A stretch of 64,000 nucleotides of DNA from Bacteroidaceae bacterium (GTDB taxonomy: Bacteria; Bacteroidota; Bacteroidia; Bacteroidales; Bacteroidaceae), in the NCBI GenBank assembly GCA_017428785.1, contig JAFRQD010000062.1, positions 1-64,000 of the forward strand, read 5' to 3'. The notes below the pieces were generated by a model. It was given only the letters and a program-made list of their open reading frames with translations. It was not told where the DNA came from and did no database searches. Positions 2,453-59,437 of the stretch are shown here, piece after piece. The translations under genes were made by a program, and so were the position numbers. Every line of letters begins with the position of its first letter. Position 1 is the first letter of the stretch.

Positions 2453-2507
2453 AATTGTTCTATTTTAGATTAAACCTTTTGTTCTTTATGTTATCATAAA
2501 AGTTGGG

Positions 2508-2515
2508 CAAAGTTA
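2508..2515 (-). promoter_or_regulatory. -7 box (TAACTTTG) for lemA
   Basis: Reading the minus strand gives CCGTAACTTTGCCC, which fits the Bacteroidota -7 consensus TAnnTTTG. It lies 56 bp upstream of the lemA start and would drive lemA and the M48 gene. Confidence 0.7.
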
Positions 2516-2631
2516 CGGAAAAAAGATGAGAAAAGAGGCATTTACGACCGCTAATTTGAAAAAGTTTGTGCGTTTTTGCGTGTTTTTGCATCTTTTAACA
2601 CAAGAAAGCGGAATTTCTAATTAAAAAGTTC

Positions 2632-2639
2632 TATATTTG
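2632..2639 (+). promoter_or_regulatory. -7 box (TATATTTG) for rpoD
   Basis: TATATTTGCGC fits TAnnTTTG and sits 37 bp before the chosen rpoD ATG at 2676. An in-frame TTG at 2637 falls inside this box, which argues against starting the protein there. Confidence 0.75.
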
Positions 2640-2675
2640 CGCGCTAATTCTTCGAAAAGACATATAAGGCAATAT

Positions 2676-5196: not shown

Positions 5197-5283
5197 AAAC
5201 GCCGCGTGCGGCGATGGCAAATTCCGCGTGCGGCGATGACCATTTCCGCGTGCGGCGTTGGGCAATTCCGCAGGCGGCGTTTT
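5197..5283. repeat. 22-bp GC-rich tandem repeat (family 1, copy A)
   Basis: About four units of 22 bp, each with the core CCGCGTGCGGCG followed by a 10-base spacer such as ATGGCAAATT, bounded by AAACGCC at the left and GGCGTTT at the right. It lies between the converging 3' ends of menA and gltX, 10 bp from the gltX stop. The symmetric A-tract/stem/T-tract ends could make it a bidirectional terminator. Confidence 0.85.
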
Positions 5284-5292
5284 GAGATGCCC

Positions 5293-6858
5293 TTAGCCGA
5301 GAGTTTCGATGGCGAACTTCATGCGGCTAAGTGTCTCATTCTTACCGAGGAAGGCTGCCAGCTCGTACATGTCGGGACCTTGGCCTTCGCCAACGAGGCA
5401 GATGCGCCAGGCGTTCCAAGGCTTAATGCCGGTCTGCTCCGCCCATGCATCCACGGCGGGCTTCATGCTCTCGACCGTGAAATCCTCAACGGTGGCGAGA
5501 ATGTCGGCCAGTTGTCGCATCTCGGCTCCTGTCCCTTCCTTCCAGTTCTTGCGGACAAATTTGTCCTCTGTGTCGAAACCAGTCGGAGCGACAAAGAAGA
5601 AGCGCGTCAAAGGCCATAGGTCGCTGACGAAGCTGATGTTGCGTTTGTGCTTCTGCCCCTGTCCGTCGGTATATTCGATGACTTTCAGCTTCATCATCCT
5701 GACGACTTCGGCTTCCTGCTCGGGCGTTGCCTCAATGCCTTGCTCGCGGAGCACCTTGTCGAAACTGGGCACCCACGCTTCGTCGGGCTGCTTCAAGAGG
5801 TATTGGTGGTTGAACCAAGCCGCTTTGATGTAGTCGAACTTCGCGCCGTTCTTCGAGCACTTGCTGAGGTCGAAGAGCTGCACCATCTCGTCGAGGCTCA
5901 TTACTTCCTGATCGTTCCCCGGATTCCAGCCAAGCAAAGCGAGGAAGTTCACGACAGCTTCGGGCAGATAGCCTTTCTCGCGATAGCCGCTGCTTACTTC
6001 TCCGCTCTTCGGATCGTGCCATTCAAGCGGGAAGACAGGGAAGCCCAGTTTGTCGCCGTCGCGTTTGCTGAGCTTGCCGTTGCCGACAGGTTTGAGCAAG
6101 AGCGGCAGGTGTGCGAAGCGAGGCATCGTGTCGGCCCAACCGAAAGCCTCGTAGAGGAGGACATGAAGCGGCGCGCTTGGCAACCACTCTTCGCCACGAA
6201 TGACGTGCGTCACCTCCATCAAGTGGTCGTCCACGATGTTGGCGAGATGGTAAGTCGGGAGCTCGTCGGCACTCTTGTAGAGCACCTTGTCGTCGAGGAT
6301 GCTGCTGTTGATGTGCACCTCGCCGCGAATGATGTCGTCCACGATGACGTCGCGACCCGGCTCGATGAGGAAGCGAACCACATACTGCTTGCCTTCTGCG
6401 ATGAGCTTCTCGACCTCTTCTTTGGGGAGAGTCAGCGAGTTGCGCATCTGCATTCGGGTGCTTGCATCGTACTGGAAGTTCTCTATCTCAGCACGTTTCG
6501 CATCGAGTTCCTCGGGCGTATCGAAGGCGATGTAGGCCTTCCCGTTGTCGAGAAGTTGCTGAACATACTTCTTATATATATCGCGACGCTCGCTCTGACG
6601 ATAAGGTCCGTGATTGCCTCCGAAGCTCACGCCTTCGTCGAACTTGATGCCCAGCCAACGGAACGATTCGATGATATATTCCTCTGCTCCAGGCACGAAA
6701 CGCGTGGAGTCGGTATCTTCAATGCGGAAGATGAGGTCGCCGCCATGCTGACGGGCAAAGAGGTAGTTGTAGAGCGCGGTACGGACACCGCCGATATGCA
6801 AGGGTCCGGTTGGGCTTGGAGCGAAACGGACACGCACTTTCTTTAGTTCAGAGTTCAT
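5293..6858 (-). CDS. gltX: Glutamyl-tRNA synthetase
   Basis: A 521-residue class I synthetase that charges tRNA-Glu. The N-terminus has [20 protein letters not shown] with the HIGH-equivalent HIGG at residues 21-24. The KMSKS-equivalent KLSKRDGDK is near residue 262, preceded by [11 protein letters not shown]. The middle contains [11 protein letters not shown], the GluRS/GlnRS signature. The length is near the usual 470-510. The start [10 protein letters not shown] is upstream of the core by ten residues, and heptad-like repeat wording (TTCAGAGTTCATAG) begins at the ATG itself, so the first few residues may be repeat-derived. Transcription comes from the divergent promoter module at 6889-6948. 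Confidence 0.97.
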
Positions 6859-6888
6859 AGTTCAGAGTCCATAGTTATAAATTCCGTG

Positions 6889-6948
6889 CAAAAGTACAAA
6901 GAAATTAAGAATTAGGAAAGAAGAATTGAGAATTATTTCATATCTTTG
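6889..6948. promoter_or_regulatory. Divergent promoter module A (52-bp geometry) for gltX and the PgpH-like gene
   Basis: A minus-strand -7 box (CAAAAGTA read as TACTTTTG, 6889-6896) and a plus-strand box (TATCTTTG, 6941-6948) face away from each other. The start-to-start distance is 52 bp, with 44 bp between them. The interior is degenerate 7-bp units (ATTAAGA, ATTAGGA, ATTGAGA) ending ATTATTTCA. The same geometry is found at 17621, 24690 and 46820. Confidence 0.8.
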
Positions 6949-6977
6949 CAAACAAATCAACAAATTGCATCGCTGCA

Positions 6978-7013
6978 ATTCTTAACTCTTAACTCTTAAT
7001 TCTTAATTGGATT
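6978..7013. repeat. Heptad repeat in the PgpH-like leader
   Basis: Units TTAACTC and TTAATTC are repeated about five times just upstream of the ATG at 7019. They are complementary in wording to the ATTAAGA units inside the neighbouring promoter module, so the leader RNA could fold back. Confidence 0.7.
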
Positions 7014-10335: not shown

Positions 10336-10401
10336 ATTGCACATACATGTAGTTGCAATTGCACGTACATGTAAATGCAATTGCACGTACATGTAAATGC
10401 A
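10336..10401. repeat. 22-bp tandem repeat (family 3), exactly three units
   Basis: Three consecutive 22-bp units, the last two identical: ATTGCACGTACATGTAAATGCA written end to end. Each unit contains the palindromes TACATGTA and, across junctions, TGCAATTGCA. The array ends 46 bp upstream of the secreted-protein start at 10289, so it lies in or near that gene's promoter or leader. Confidence 0.9.
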
Positions 10402-10559
10402 AAGAGTGCGACCTGTTAAATCGACAGGAATCTGCTGCCGCATCTCTCGACGCAGCAGCAGGAAGGCGCCATTTATTAACGTCTAAAACTAAACTGATAT
10501 GAGTTCTTTCTTTTGTCTCGTTCATGCAGATTTGTTGTTTTGTTCGGTCGGATTTGCCG

Positions 10560-16214: not shown

Positions 16215-16313
16215 ACTGATGGGGAATAGCCGGAAAACAATGAAAACATGGGGAGTTCAGAGCTGTTTGCGCTGAGCATTTTGAGCCCCCTGTGGAGCAT
16301 CGTAAAACGCCGG

Positions 16314-16391
16314 CTGCGGCGATGGCCAACGCCGCAGCCGGGGATTGCCATCGCCGCACGCGGAAATTGCCATCGCCGCAGCCGGCGTTTT
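16314..16391. repeat. 22-bp GC-rich tandem repeat (family 1, copy B)
   Basis: About 3.5 units with core CGCCGCAGCCGG/CGCCGCACGCGG and spacers such as ATTGCCAT. Bounded by AAAACGCC and GGCGTTTT. It lies between the converging fasciclin and kinase genes. Confidence 0.85.
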
Positions 16392-17590: not shown

Positions 17591-17620
17591 AGTTTATCAG
17601 TTTATAAATAGTTTTCTGTG

Positions 17621-17680
17621 CAAAGATACGAAGAAAATAATAATTAAGAAAGAAGGATTAAGAATTATTTCGTATCTTTG
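17621..17680. promoter_or_regulatory. Divergent promoter module B (52-bp geometry)
   Basis: The most symmetric copy: TGCAAAGATACGAA on one side and TTCGTATCTTTGCA on the other. Boxes are at 17621-17628 (minus) and 17673-17680 (plus), 52 bp start to start. The 44-bp interior is AATAATAATTAAGA-type heptads ending ATTATTTCG. It serves the NahK-like kinase and the MG2-type gene. Confidence 0.85.
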
Positions 17681-17707
17681 CATGCGAAACCACTTAAAAC
17701 AGATAAC

Positions 17708-21247: not shown

Positions 21248-21372
21248 AAACGCCGCACGCGGCGATGGTCATCCCCGCACGCGGCGATGGTCATCCCCGC
21301 ATGTGGCGATGGTCATCCCCGCACGCGGAGTTGGAAATTGCCCCATGCCGCGACTGCAAATACTGCGTGTTT
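21248..21372. repeat. 22-bp GC-rich tandem repeat (family 1, copy C)
   Basis: Three regular units (core CCGCACGCGGCG with spacer ATGGTCATC) then a decaying fourth and fifth (CCGCACGCGGAGTTGGAAAT, CCGCGACTGCAAATAC). Left end is AAACGCC; the right end GCGTGTTTT is degenerate. It is the only copy more than about 200 bp from a stop codon. Confidence 0.8.
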
Positions 21373-21860: not shown

Positions 21861-21868
21861 TACCTTTG
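21861..21868 (+). promoter_or_regulatory. -7 box (TACCTTTG) for the SpoU methyltransferase
   Basis: TTGTACCTTTGCATG fits TAnnTTTG. The in-frame TTG at 21866 falls inside it, so the ATG at 21929 is the better start. Confidence 0.7.
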
Positions 21869-21928
21869 CATGTGGAAACCTGCAAAGCGCCCTCTTCCGG
21901 AAGGGAAAGACGGGTGCCAGAAGATGAA

Positions 21929-22768
21929 ATGAACATAACAGAACTCACATCGCTCGGAGCCCCCGAGTTGCAAGTCTATGGTACGCTGACGGAAGCGCAG
22001 CTGCGCAACAGGCTCGAGCCGGCGAAGGGCGTCTTCATAGCCGAAAGCCCGAAAGTGATAAGTGTGGCGCTCGATGCCGGCTTCGAGCCACTCTCTCTGC
22101 TCTGCGAACGCAAGCATATCGAGGGAGATGCCCGCAGCATCATAGCCCGTTGTCCCGCCGAGATGCCCGTCTATACCGGCAGCCGCGAGCTCTTGGCGCA
22201 GCTGACGGGCTACACCCTGACTCGCGGCGTGCTCTGTGCCATGCGTCGCCCCCAGCCGCTTACTCCAGAGGAAGTCTGCAGGGATGCCCGCCGAATCGTG
22301 GTGCTCCACGGCGTCTGCGACACAACAAACGTGGGTGCCATCTTCCGCTCGGCAGCAGCTCTCGGCATAGATGCCCTGCTGATGACGCGAGATTCGTGCG
22401 ACCCGTTGAATCGTCGGGCTGTTCGCGTCTCAATGGGCAGCGTGTTCCTCGTGCCATGGACGTGGCTCGATGCAGAAGACGGGACAGCCGCCGGCACCAT
22501 TCATAAACTGCAGGAGATGGGCTTTACCACAGCGGCGATGGCGCTCAGGAAGGACGACGTCAGCATCGACGACCCGCGGCTCAAGGCAACGGAGCGTCTG
22601 GCCCTCATCATGGGAACAGAAGGCGATGGCTTGCCCGACGCCGTCATCGATGCCTCGGACCTCGTCGTGAAGATACCCATGCATCACGGTGTGGACAGCC
22701 TCAATGTGGGAAATGCAGCTGCAATCGCTTTCTGGGAACTGGCCAAAGACTTTCGCAAGCTCCTGTAG
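21929..22768 (+). CDS. TrmH/SpoU family RNA 2'-O-methyltransferase
   Basis: A 279-residue SPOUT enzyme using S-adenosylmethionine to methylate ribose in tRNA or rRNA. An N-terminal substrate-binding region (LGAPELQVYGTLTEAQLRNR, then AKGVFIAESPKVISVALDAG) precedes the catalytic part. Motif 1 is VLHGVCDTTNVGAIFRSAAA (Asn and Arg). Motif 2 is LALIMGTEGDGLP. Motif 3 is IPMHHGVDSLNVGNAAAIAF. These form the knotted cofactor site. The exact RNA target cannot be read from sequence. The start at 21929 is chosen because the upstream TTG lies in the -7 box. Confidence 0.9.
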   Translation: MNITELTSLGAPELQVYGTLTEAQLRNRLEPAKGVFIAESPKVISVALDAGFEPLSLLCERKHIEGDARSIIARCPAEMPVYTGSRELLAQLTGYTLTRGVLCAMRRPQPLTPEEVCRDARRIVVLHGVCDTTNVGAIFRSAAALGIDALLMTRDSCDPLNRRAVRVSMGSVFLVPWTWLDAEDGTAAGTIHKLQEMGFTTAAMALRKDDVSIDDPRLKATERLALIMGTEGDGLPDAVIDASDLVVKIPMHHGVDSLNVGNAAAIAFWELAKDFRKLL

Positions 22769-24651: not shown

Positions 24652-24689
24652 AAACCAATCTTTTTACCTGTTTAAGTTCTTTCAGCGTG

Positions 24690-24749
24690 CAAAAGTACAA
24701 AAAAACTATGAACTAAGGACTATGAACTATGAACTTTTTCGTATCTTTG
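24690..24749. promoter_or_regulatory. Divergent promoter module C (52-bp geometry)
   Basis: Minus box CAAAAGTA (24690-24697) and plus box TATCTTTG (24742-24749), 52 bp start to start. The 44-bp interior is ACTATGA/ACTAAGG heptads, a different repeat word from modules A and B, ending TTTTTCG. It serves the DUF4954 gene and queD. Confidence 0.85.
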
Positions 24750-24765
24750 CAAAAACTTTAGCATT

Positions 24766-25887: not shown

Positions 25888-25998
25888 AAACGCCGCCTGC
25901 GGGGATTGCCAACGCCGCCTGCGGGGATTGCCAACGCCGCACGCGGGGATTGCCATCGCCGCACGCGGAATTTGCCATCGCCGCACGCGGCGTTTTTT
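25888..25998. repeat. 22-bp GC-rich tandem repeat (family 1, copy D)
   Basis: About five units with core CGCCGCCTGCGG or CGCCGCACGCGG and spacer GGATTGCCAA, bounded by AAACGCC and GGCGTTTTTT. It sits between the converging ends of queE and the AlbA-type gene, 45 bp after the queE stop. Confidence 0.85.
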
Positions 25999-30503: not shown

Positions 30504-30520
30504 AATACAAATGTTTTGGG

Positions 30521-30528
30521 CAAATTTA
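30521..30528 (-). promoter_or_regulatory. -7 box (TAAATTTG) for rnr
   Basis: CAAATTTA on the plus strand reads TAAATTTG, close to the rnr ATG, implying a very short leader. Confidence 0.6.
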
Positions 30529-30633
30529 CGAAAAAATCATGATATGTGCGTAATTTCGTGCAGGAAAATTACAAAATAACGCGTGTTTGTCGACTCAACT
30601 TTGCACAGAGCGATACTCAACATCGCAGGCGGC

Positions 30634-30706
30634 GTTCGTTGATTTATCATGATGCAGCAATTGAATCATCATGATGCAGCAATTGATTTATCATGATGCA
30701 GCAATG
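30634..30706. repeat. 22-bp AT-rich tandem repeat (family 2, copy A)
   Basis: Three units of TTGATTTATCATGATGCAGCAA (one variant with GAATCATC), beginning GTTCGTTG. It lies in the rnr-fabG divergent gap (30504-30913), which otherwise holds two promoters and no gene. Confidence 0.85.
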
Positions 30707-30868
30707 AACTTAACCTGCCAAGTTGAGTCGCCAGGCATGTGGAGGCAGGTAGGCAAGCATGCGGAAACAGCCGTCGCGGAATGCTCCCTTATATAATATA
30801 ATAATGTATAAAAGGCGATTGACCCTATAATTTTCAATAATGCATTTTTAATTTTCAATTTATTGTCG

Positions 30869-30876
30869 TACCTTTG
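30869..30876 (+). promoter_or_regulatory. -7 box (TACCTTTG) for the fabG-type operon
   Basis: GTCGTACCTTTGCAGCC fits TAnnTTTG, 37 bp before the ATG at 30914, preceded by an AT-rich tract with ATTTTCAAT heptads. Confidence 0.75.
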
Positions 30877-30913
30877 CAGCCGCAAACCACATTAAGCAAG
30901 AAACGACAAGGCT

Positions 30914-34479: not shown

Positions 34480-34508
34480 AGTGTTTGTCTGTTTGTGTTT
34501 AGCGCCTG

Positions 34509-34516
34509 CAAAGTTA
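34509..34516 (-). promoter_or_regulatory. -7 box (TAACTTTG) for the CobW gene
   Basis: CAAAGTTA on the plus strand reads TAACTTTG, 30 bp upstream of the CobW start. The divergent box for the glutaminase-like gene is 81 bp away, unlike the 52-bp modules. Confidence 0.65.
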
Positions 34517-34589
34517 TGAAATAATTATGAAATACGCGAAATAAGGCATGTTTTTATTGATAATCTATTGCGAATTGCAAAGAAAGTGT

Positions 34590-34597
34590 TAACTTTG
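34590..34597 (+). promoter_or_regulatory. -7 box (TAACTTTG) for the glutaminase-like gene
   Basis: GTGTTAACTTTGCCGCC fits TAnnTTTG and lies 38 bp before the ATG at 34636. Confidence 0.7.
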
Positions 34598-34635
34598 CCG
34601 CCACTTAGCTACAAATGAGATAAATAAACAAGAAC

Positions 34636-37836: not shown

Positions 37837-37924
37837 AAAACGCCGCGTGCGGCGATGGCAAATTCCGCGTGCGGCGTTGCCCATTTCCGCGTGCGGCGTT
37901 GGCCATCGCCGCACGCGGCGTTTT
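37837..37924. repeat. 22-bp GC-rich tandem repeat (family 1, copy E)
   Basis: Four units with core CCGCGTGCGGCG, bounded by AAAACGCC and GGCGTTTT, beginning 7 bp after the stop codon of the glutaminase-like gene. Confidence 0.85.
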
Positions 37925-43827: not shown

Positions 43828-43881
43828 GTTCGTTGCTGCATCATGAATAATCAATTGCTGCATCATGATGAATCAACGAAC
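43828..43881. repeat. 22-bp AT-rich repeat (family 2, copy B) with inverted ends
   Basis: About two units (TTGCTGCATCATGAATAATC and variant) bounded by GTTCGTTG at the left and CAACGAAC at the right, a perfect 8-bp terminal inverted repeat. It lies 23 bp from the gldH stop. Confidence 0.8.
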
Positions 43882-45544: not shown

Positions 45545-45657
45545 TTTTTTGTAATCCTTCTTTCTTAACTCCTCATTCTTGATTCTTAACTCTTAACTCT
45601 TAATTCTTATCTCTTAACTCTTAATTCTTAATTCTTAACTCTTAACTCTTAATTCTG
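45545..45657. repeat. Long heptad array between holB and the PSP1 gene
   Basis: About 14 units of 7 bp mixing TTAACTC, TTAATTC, TTATCTC and TTGATTC. It runs up to the holB stop (45649). It is the longest heptad array of the window and could vary in length between strains. Confidence 0.85.
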
Positions 45658-46776: not shown

Positions 46777-46819
46777 CTCTTGTTTAACATTTAATCACTT
46801 GCCTTTAGCCATTTGTTTG

Positions 46820-46879
46820 CAAAGGTACAAAGTTTTTTTGGATTAGAGCTTAGAGATTAGGGATTATTTCGTATCTTTG
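46820..46879. promoter_or_regulatory. Divergent promoter module D (52-bp geometry)
   Basis: Minus box CAAAGGTA (TACCTTTG, 46820-46827) and plus box TATCTTTG (46872-46879), 52 bp start to start. The 44-bp interior has ATTAGAG/CTTAGAG/ATTAGGG heptads ending ATTATTTCG. It serves holB and ugd. Confidence 0.85.
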
Positions 46880-46972
46880 CACAGAAAAAGGTAAGAATAA
46901 AAGCTAATAGTAAATGGCGAATGCCAAATCGTTAAATGGTAAATGGTAAATCGTTAAATGGTAAATGATAAG

Positions 46973-53711: not shown

Positions 53712-53799
53712 AAAACGCCGCGTGCGGCGTTGGCAATTTCCGCGTGCGGCGATGGCAATCCCCGCGTGCGGCGTTGGCCATTTCCGCAGGCGGCGTTTT
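53712..53799. repeat. 22-bp GC-rich tandem repeat (family 1, copy F)
   Basis: Four units with core CCGCGTGCGGCG, bounded by AAAACGCC and GGCGTTTT, ending 20 bp from the CotH gene stop at 53819. Confidence 0.85.
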
Positions 53800-59340: not shown

Positions 59341-59437
59341 GTTCGTTGCTGCATCATGATAAATCAATTGCTGCATCATGATAAATCAATTGCTGCATCA
59401 TGATAAATCAATTGCTGCATCATGATAAATCAATCAA
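59341..59437. repeat. 22-bp AT-rich tandem repeat (family 2, copy C)
   Basis: Four units of TTGCTGCATCATGATAAATC with AA, starting GTTCGTTG. It fills almost all of the gap between the channel-CotH stop (59434) and the Xaa-Pro aminopeptidase start (59326) and touches the stop codon. Confidence 0.9.

Follow-up and report, generated by a model that had tools for sequence, protein, structure and literature searches.

The window, the 64-kb stretch of DNA analysed here, contains four gene junctions at which two −7 boxes of the sigma-ABfr type (exact TAnnTTTG on both sides) lie divergently across a gap of 44 bp (Table 1). A pattern search of the window with GCAAANNTA-N44-TANNTTTGC gives exact matches at 6888, 17620, 24689 and 46819, and a fifth match, with two mismatches, when up to two are allowed. 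Among 100 shuffles of the window searched with the same tolerance the mean number of matches is 0.19 and the largest 2. The original prediction, made from the letters of the window, of four divergent junctions with boxes 52 bp apart from start to start and 44 bp between them is thereby confirmed. The inner ends of the four pairs read ATTTCA, ATTTCG, TTTTCG and ATTTCG, and the interiors consist of 7-bp repeats of differing words, also as predicted.

The open reading frame list places divergent genes on either side of all four pairs. Pfam matches support the assignments of gltX, the PgpH-type 7TM-HD protein, the APH/choline kinase (NahK-like), DUF4954, QueD (PTPS), HolB and Ugd, and the MG2 match of the gene to the right of the 17620 pair falls under the Pfam cut-off (21.8 against 32.8 bits). 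Elsewhere in the window, a −7 box at 21861-21869 shares bases with the initial start codon of the open reading frame 21866-22768, which suggests that translation either is leaderless or truly begins further downstream.

Table 1. Predicted promoters, box pairs and repeat arrays (window coordinates unless a locus handle, L, is given)
Feature	Position	Boxes and gap (bp)	Remarks
Predicted bidirectional promoter, gltX (-) / PgpH-like (+)	6888..6949	boxes 6888-6896 and 6941-6949, gap 44	GAATTAA-type heptamers, central GAAAGAA
Predicted bidirectional promoter, NahK-like (-) / MG2-type (+)	17620..17681	gap 44	GAATTAA-type heptamers, central GAAAGAA
Predicted bidirectional promoter, DUF4954 (-) / queD (+)	24689..24750	gap 44	GAACTAT-type heptamers
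Predicted bidirectional promoter, holB (-) / ugd (+)	46819..46880	gap 44	GATTAGR-type heptamers
Divergent −7 boxes	2507..2640	gap 116	on helical ladder
Divergent −7 boxes	34508..34598	gap 73	on helical ladder
Divergent −7 boxes	30520..30877	gap 340	too distant for rung assignment
Elements with central GAAAGAA/GGAAGAA	L009 1501, window 6888, window 17620, L146, L167, L195, L212, L219, L221, L223, L243		
Heptamer array outside promoter boxes	6845-6876		start/leader of gltX
Heptamer array outside promoter boxes	6977-7008		start/leader of PgpH
Heptamer array outside promoter boxes	46906-46971		start/leader of ugd
Heptamer array	45562-45656		13.6 copies of TTCTTAA
22-bp-unit tandem arrays	5202-5279, 10336-10402, 16306-16387, 21253-21328, 25889-25990, 30639-30705, 37843-37922, 43833-43876, 53718-53797, 59346-59434		

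Divergent spacing and the helical repeat

The window belongs to a 2.98-Mb assembly (G000), in which divergent-box searches covering gaps of 0-29, 30-60 and 62-121 bp (gap 61 lies outside them) found 7, 36 and 51 pairs, against 0, 0 and 2 for reversed-pattern controls. The original prediction had staked itself on a genome-wide comparison of 44 bp with other spacings, and 44 bp comes out as the commonest gap, with 15 of the 36 pairs of gap 30-60. Of the same 36 pairs, 1, 5, 2 and 3 have gaps of 42, 43, 45 and 46, eight have gaps of 51-54 and two have gap 35. The excess at 44 corresponds to a Poisson probability of about 2e-15 relative to the mean of the other 30 values in this range. A crude gene caller reads 93 of 133 gap-44 elements as divergent, compared with 129 of 376 neighbouring gene pairs overall, and misreads at least one gap-44 element (that at 46819, divergent by the open reading frame list).

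The wider gaps in G000 are uneven as well: most of the 50 pairs listed and used, from 51 with gaps of 62-121, fall at 62-66, 72-75, 84-85, 95-97, 105-107 and 115-117. Taken together, gaps cluster near 44, 53, 64, 74, 85, 95, 106 and 116, which is a period of 10.5 bp. In a Rayleigh test at this period nR2 is 38.8 (86 pairs, gap 35-119), and it is 21.6 for the 50 pairs with a gap of at least 57, which exclude the 44 and 53 peaks.

The regularity is thus real and stronger than first described. The predicted divergent promoters of this genome are helix-quantised, and the 52-bp geometry, originally taken for a special module, is the commonest rung of a helical series to which wider pairs belong as well. 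The accompanying claim that other divergent pairs of the window lie off the rule fails for the 124-bp and 81-bp pairs, whose gaps of 116 and 73 are both on the 10.5-bp ladder; the 348-bp pair (gap 340) is beyond judging, and the 102-bp pair (GNAT gene/menA) was not found as a strict box pair in the window, nor by a further pattern search at roughly that gap length.

Stretches from five other genomes of the genus (G018, G003, G023, G008 and G019) give nR2 21.1 at 10.5 bp (62 pairs). We place more weight on the value for gaps of at least 57 (8.5, 33 pairs), because the stretches of G008, G018 and G019 come partly from contigs known to carry the studied junctions, which biases the 44-gap counts upwards. 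The period is well followed by G019 and G003 (7 pairs each); other periods score better in G018 (12.2) and in G008 (5.3, which is half of 10.5); G023 has no gap phase at 10.5 (nR2 0.4, 10 pairs); and no divergent box pair was detected in the stretches of a sixth genome, G001. Once the seed element is excluded, pattern-found loci from named genomes again have their best period at 10.5 (nR2 11.4, 31 pairs, gap 38-180; nR2 4.8 for the 20 pairs with a gap of at least 60). Same-strand box pairs at these loci, used as a control, number 25, with 16 in range, and have their best period at 9.1 (nR2 5.5); convergent box pairs number 18.

For a rung test, one rung (gap 94-97) and one interval half a turn off it (89-92) were fixed beforehand from the ladder of G000, and 121 genus genomes were then searched. 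These genomes are drafts, related to one another, and G000, the source of the rung choice, is counted among them. The search found 914 pairs on the rung, not all independent since related genomes have orthologous junctions in common, and 71 off it. The rung is favoured in 120 of the 121 genomes, with one tie and no genome in the opposite direction. Reversed-pattern controls over the 121 genomes total 4 and 5, so the 71 off-rung pairs also exceed background. No gap phase is seen in other families (nR2 0.4 for the 75 of 101 pairs that were listed, from 9 of 12 genomes), and we therefore claim the rule for this genus, noting that chance matches may mask a phase in those families.

A/T-rich blocks upstream of single boxes

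From the window and the genus stretches we collected 243 boxes upstream of genes, 126 of which lack a strict divergent partner at distances up to 130 bp. Upstream of these partnerless boxes, A/T-rich blocks lie at about −6, −15, −27, −38, −48, −59, −67, −80 and −89 from the box, forming a ladder with a period of 10.4-10.5 bp that extends to about −100 and whose portion from −100 to −45 is matched by none of 2000 shuffles. The ladder is equally clear, and has nearly the same phase, at 54 boxes whose upstream neighbour is co-directional and 100 bp or more away, and it disappears once every sequence is displaced at random by 0-10 bp, indicating that it is a property of the single promoter. In the 126 boxes T is also weakly enriched near the −33 position, at −24 to −21 counted from the start of the box. 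In genomes of other families the upstream ladder is weak (G012, in which 1 of 500 shuffles reaches the signal) or, in its distal part, absent (G013, 432 of 500).

Within the blocks A-rich sequence weakly precedes T-rich sequence, by 2.1 bp overall and 0.5 bp distally. AAATTT occurs 14 times and TTTAAA 3 times in the upstream DNA (about 12 each in shuffles), and the bend predicted for this DNA by a wedge model is 52 degrees, compared with 34 in shuffled sequence.

If two promoters share blocks of phase x, their gap is predicted to be −2x−1 modulo 10.5. The 126 boxes give a predicted gap phase of 0.4-1.0, and the observed phases are 0.8 (G000, gap of at least 57), 1.2 (G000, all gaps) and 1.6 (other genus members), so that predicted and observed values differ by up to about 1.2 bp.

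In the explanation that we consider likely, these are helix-phased divergent promoters that share one ladder of A/T blocks, 44 bp being its most frequent rung. The pairs would be bidirectional promoters of the main sigma type of the Bacteroidota, with TAnnTTTG at −7, and each box carries A/T-rich blocks one helical turn apart out to about −100, the −33 signal being only weak and T-rich. As the blocks look A/T-rich on either strand, two divergent promoters could use the same ones, in which case they must stand in helical register, at a gap of about 1 + 10.5k. Gap 44 is the tightest common rung. At this distance the −4 to −10 block of each promoter coincides with the −35 to −42 block of its partner and the two −33 positions share the same central bases, so two polymerases probably compete. 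Gaps near 33 lose the shared block; they are present but rarer in G000. The blocks may be alpha-CTD sites or curved DNA, the boxes are presumably active as promoters, and selection probably keeps the gap. Inside the fixed frame the spacer turns over and is often made up of 7-bp tandem repeats whose G or C lies where the promoter tolerates it, three repeats (3 x 7 = 21 bp) making two turns.

More tentatively, and with clearly less confidence, we can imagine a coupled unit throughout the genus, in which a curved A/T ladder would hold two polymerases on one face and permit nearly only helix-quantised distances, the 44 rung acting as an either-or switch in which heptamers would be free to replace the spacer sequence.

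Spacer turnover, heptamer register and alternative explanations

Orthologous junctions were compared at 106 loci (21 of 30 for PgpH, 30 of 30 for NahK, 25 of 30 for DUF4954 and 30 of 30 for holB). A box pair is detected at 38 of them (12, 10, 9 and 7, in the same order), and the gap is 43-44 in 29 (5, 9, 8 and 7); the nine others have gaps of 32, 34, 34, 34, 35, 42, 45, 45 and 46, with alternative gap readings, 32 at two loci and 54 at one locus, set aside. Three distant genus members have gap 34 in place of 44 at gltX/PgpH, about one turn shorter, and the DUF4954 junction of G063 has gap 32. Many more distant loci have no pair and, by eye, often a different sequence next to the gene. Many of the orthologs differ in their words, bearing out the earlier statement that spacing is kept while sequence changes. 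At holB/ugd the word is GATTAGR in G000, G047 and G063 and GAATTAA in G005, and it is reversed in G046 (GATTAGR-like) and in G036 and G018 (GAATTAA-like). The NahK junctions of G008, G019 and G018 keep a gap of 43-44 with little or no heptamer pattern by eye. This turnover of words is a concerted change, for which conversion between loci, re-expansion of repeats, recombination and selection acting on a weak signal at −33 are all possible sources.

A register-specific heptamer scan of named genomes returned at least 119 stretches; it fixed gap and register and is thus uninformative on either. Among the 80 stretches listed, 79 are assigned to Prevotella, Xylanibacter, Prevotellaceae, Bacteroidaceae or Bacteroidales and one to an uncultured bacterium, and these taxon names are the only basis for setting the genus close to Prevotella and Xylanibacter. 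The genomes hit by the scan include those of the cultured relatives Xylanibacter brevis ATCC 19188 and X. ruminicola Ga6B6. Together with one G000 element the stretches make 120 elements, 114 of them distinct, with GAATTAA, GAATTAT, GAATTGT, GAATTAC and GAACTAT as leading words.

A set unselected for register comprises 48 of 69 gap-44 elements, from the four genomes with most (G000, G005, G008 and G001). By threshold 36 of the 48 are heptameric, a fraction that overstates the share in the genus because the 21 omitted elements come from heptamer-poor genomes; a few of the 12 below threshold look partly heptameric. The 36 heptamer elements place 106 of their 225 G on a single register, p mod 7 = 6. 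In the profile of the partnerless boxes, p mod 7 = 4 and 6 make the smallest demand for A/T (0.572; 4 mirrors 6), followed by 5 (0.595), and the heptamer register is therefore among those that the promoter profile tolerates best.

We rejected the heptamers as the cause of the geometry, because gaps of 42-44 account for 10 of the 19 pairs listed for G034 and 11 of the 22 listed for G006, in both of which the interiors are heptamer-free by eye, and because of the 12 sub-threshold elements. Since heptamers fit a tolerated register, are not seen in the interiors of these two genomes and form arrays elsewhere too, they are best read as intergenic repeats that fit a promoter frame. A central GAAAGAA (or GGAAGAA) repeat is found in 11 elements from seven distinct locus groups, three of the elements being in G000 (Table 1); in our reading it would supply one promoter with a T-rich, −33-like stretch.

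The original prediction attributed the geometry to a mobile or gene-converted promoter. A cassette bounded by the boxes, carrying a fixed length from locus to locus, would account for the changes of word and strand at orthologous junctions of close species and for the recurrence of the central GAAAGAA (or near) variant at seven locus groups. It would also fit the DUF4954/queD interior of G047, which is 0.89 like that of G005 and 0.68 like that of G000, with a change in every repeat, even though G047 and G000 are sisters (support 0.98 in a three-protein tree). However, the flanks of this junction compare at 0.82 with G005 and 0.84 with G000 on the left and at 0.85 and 0.72 over 40 bases on the right, so that ordinary recombination across a wider region may account for some of the switch. 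Nor would a cassette explain why G034 and G006 favour the same gaps with heptamer-free interiors, why wide pairs obey the same ladder or why the heptamer register is predicted from partnerless promoters. In the junctions compared by eye, no sequence common to different loci was seen outside the boxes. No ortholog in which the array is absent and the boxes are joined, as in a MITE-type empty site, was seen among the junctions read by eye, though the G063 junction is shortened to gap 32, and we rejected an inverted-repeat-bounded cassette on this ground. We regard a cassette as an improbable source of the fixed length. Of the original proposal, a selected geometry is supported; mobility or gene conversion is not needed for the geometry and at most fits the interior words.

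A requirement for two polymerases to share a helical face, through contact or torsional coupling, with the A/T ladder as a consequence, agrees with box starts that are near whole turns apart (52 bp, or five turns, at gap 44). It is nonetheless unlikely, as the ladder is present at co-directional promoters that have no divergent partner and is hence not a product of pairing, and as the phasing reaches gaps near 117, where direct contact is not to be expected. Were the heptamers operators of one regulator that sets the spacing, a dictionary of words common to many species, with GAATTAN foremost, would follow naturally (the underlying scan fixed the register); the use of several words and both strands at orthologs, the elements under the heptamer threshold and the period-7 arrays elsewhere in the window make this very unlikely. 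As tandem repeats, the arrays would suit slippage of a founder array, yet the gaps of 37 and 51 expected from 7-bp steps are seen 0 and 1 times among the 36 pairs of G000, against 15 at 44, and steps of 10.5 bp are not obtainable in this way. Slippage was rejected as the source of the spacing, and we give slippage or chance almost no credence. Helix-phased promoters sharing A/T blocks remain our preferred explanation.

Relation to known promoters and repeats

The −7 box is that of the sigma-ABfr promoter (TAnnTTTG at −7, TTTG at −33), and here the T-rich signal at −24 to −21 is weak. What sets this genus apart from that type is a strong A/T ladder of helical period, reaching about −100, together with phase-locked divergent pairs; the portions consulted of the Bacteroides thetaiotaomicron sigma-ABfr literature mention neither, and the words periodic, AT-rich and divergent are absent from a Flavobacterium promoter paper (PMC9723704). 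In the periodic A/T promoters of Campylobacter (PMC3656092) a periodic A/T pattern likewise stands in for a clear upstream box, and here too A/T-rich sequence recurs with the helix upstream of the core box (period 10.4-10.5 bp; the distal part matched by none of 2000 shuffles). Campylobacter differs in phylum and core box, and the available part of that paper does not mention divergent promoter spacing. The core here is TAnnTTTGC and the extended −10 TGxTATAAT was not found, so the promoters may work similarly but do not belong to the Campylobacter type.

The bidirectional promoters of Escherichia coli (PMC12825309), according to the part of the report available, also have pseudo-symmetric DNA and transcription in both directions, with polymerases that may exclude each other. 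They have one shared −10 element, whereas the pairs described here have two separate −7 boxes at least 44 bp apart, and the words spacing and helical are absent from the text of that report. As far as the accessible open-licence literature goes, we found no report of quantised divergent promoter spacing, or of an A/T-ladder promoter in this group.

A helix-quantised distance between promoters is a direct, genome-scale readout of face-specific use of upstream DNA, and it supplies a promoter rule for a little-studied group of the gut and rumen. It tells constraint (the phase) apart from free sequence (the heptamer words), and the pairs provide many natural candidate bidirectional promoters for work on polymerase competition and coupling.

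Seven-bp intergenic direct repeats are also known as the TAACTGA heptamers of Beggiatoaceae, cyanobacteria and five Bacteroidetes (PMC4679880). In the part of that source consulted these are a single word, mostly located just upstream of start codons in the Beggiatoaceae genome; here the repeats lie between −7 boxes, use several words and have a preferred register. Period-7 arrays also occur elsewhere in the window, some of them in leaders. The three arrays just outside promoter boxes (Table 1) differ in word or strand from the adjacent promoter array, and the TTCTTAA array is far longer than the promoter arrays. The window also contains tandem arrays of 22-bp units (CCGCGTGCGGCGATGGCCAATT-like, TTGCTGCATCATGATAAATCAA-like or others), a unit length of approximately two helical turns.
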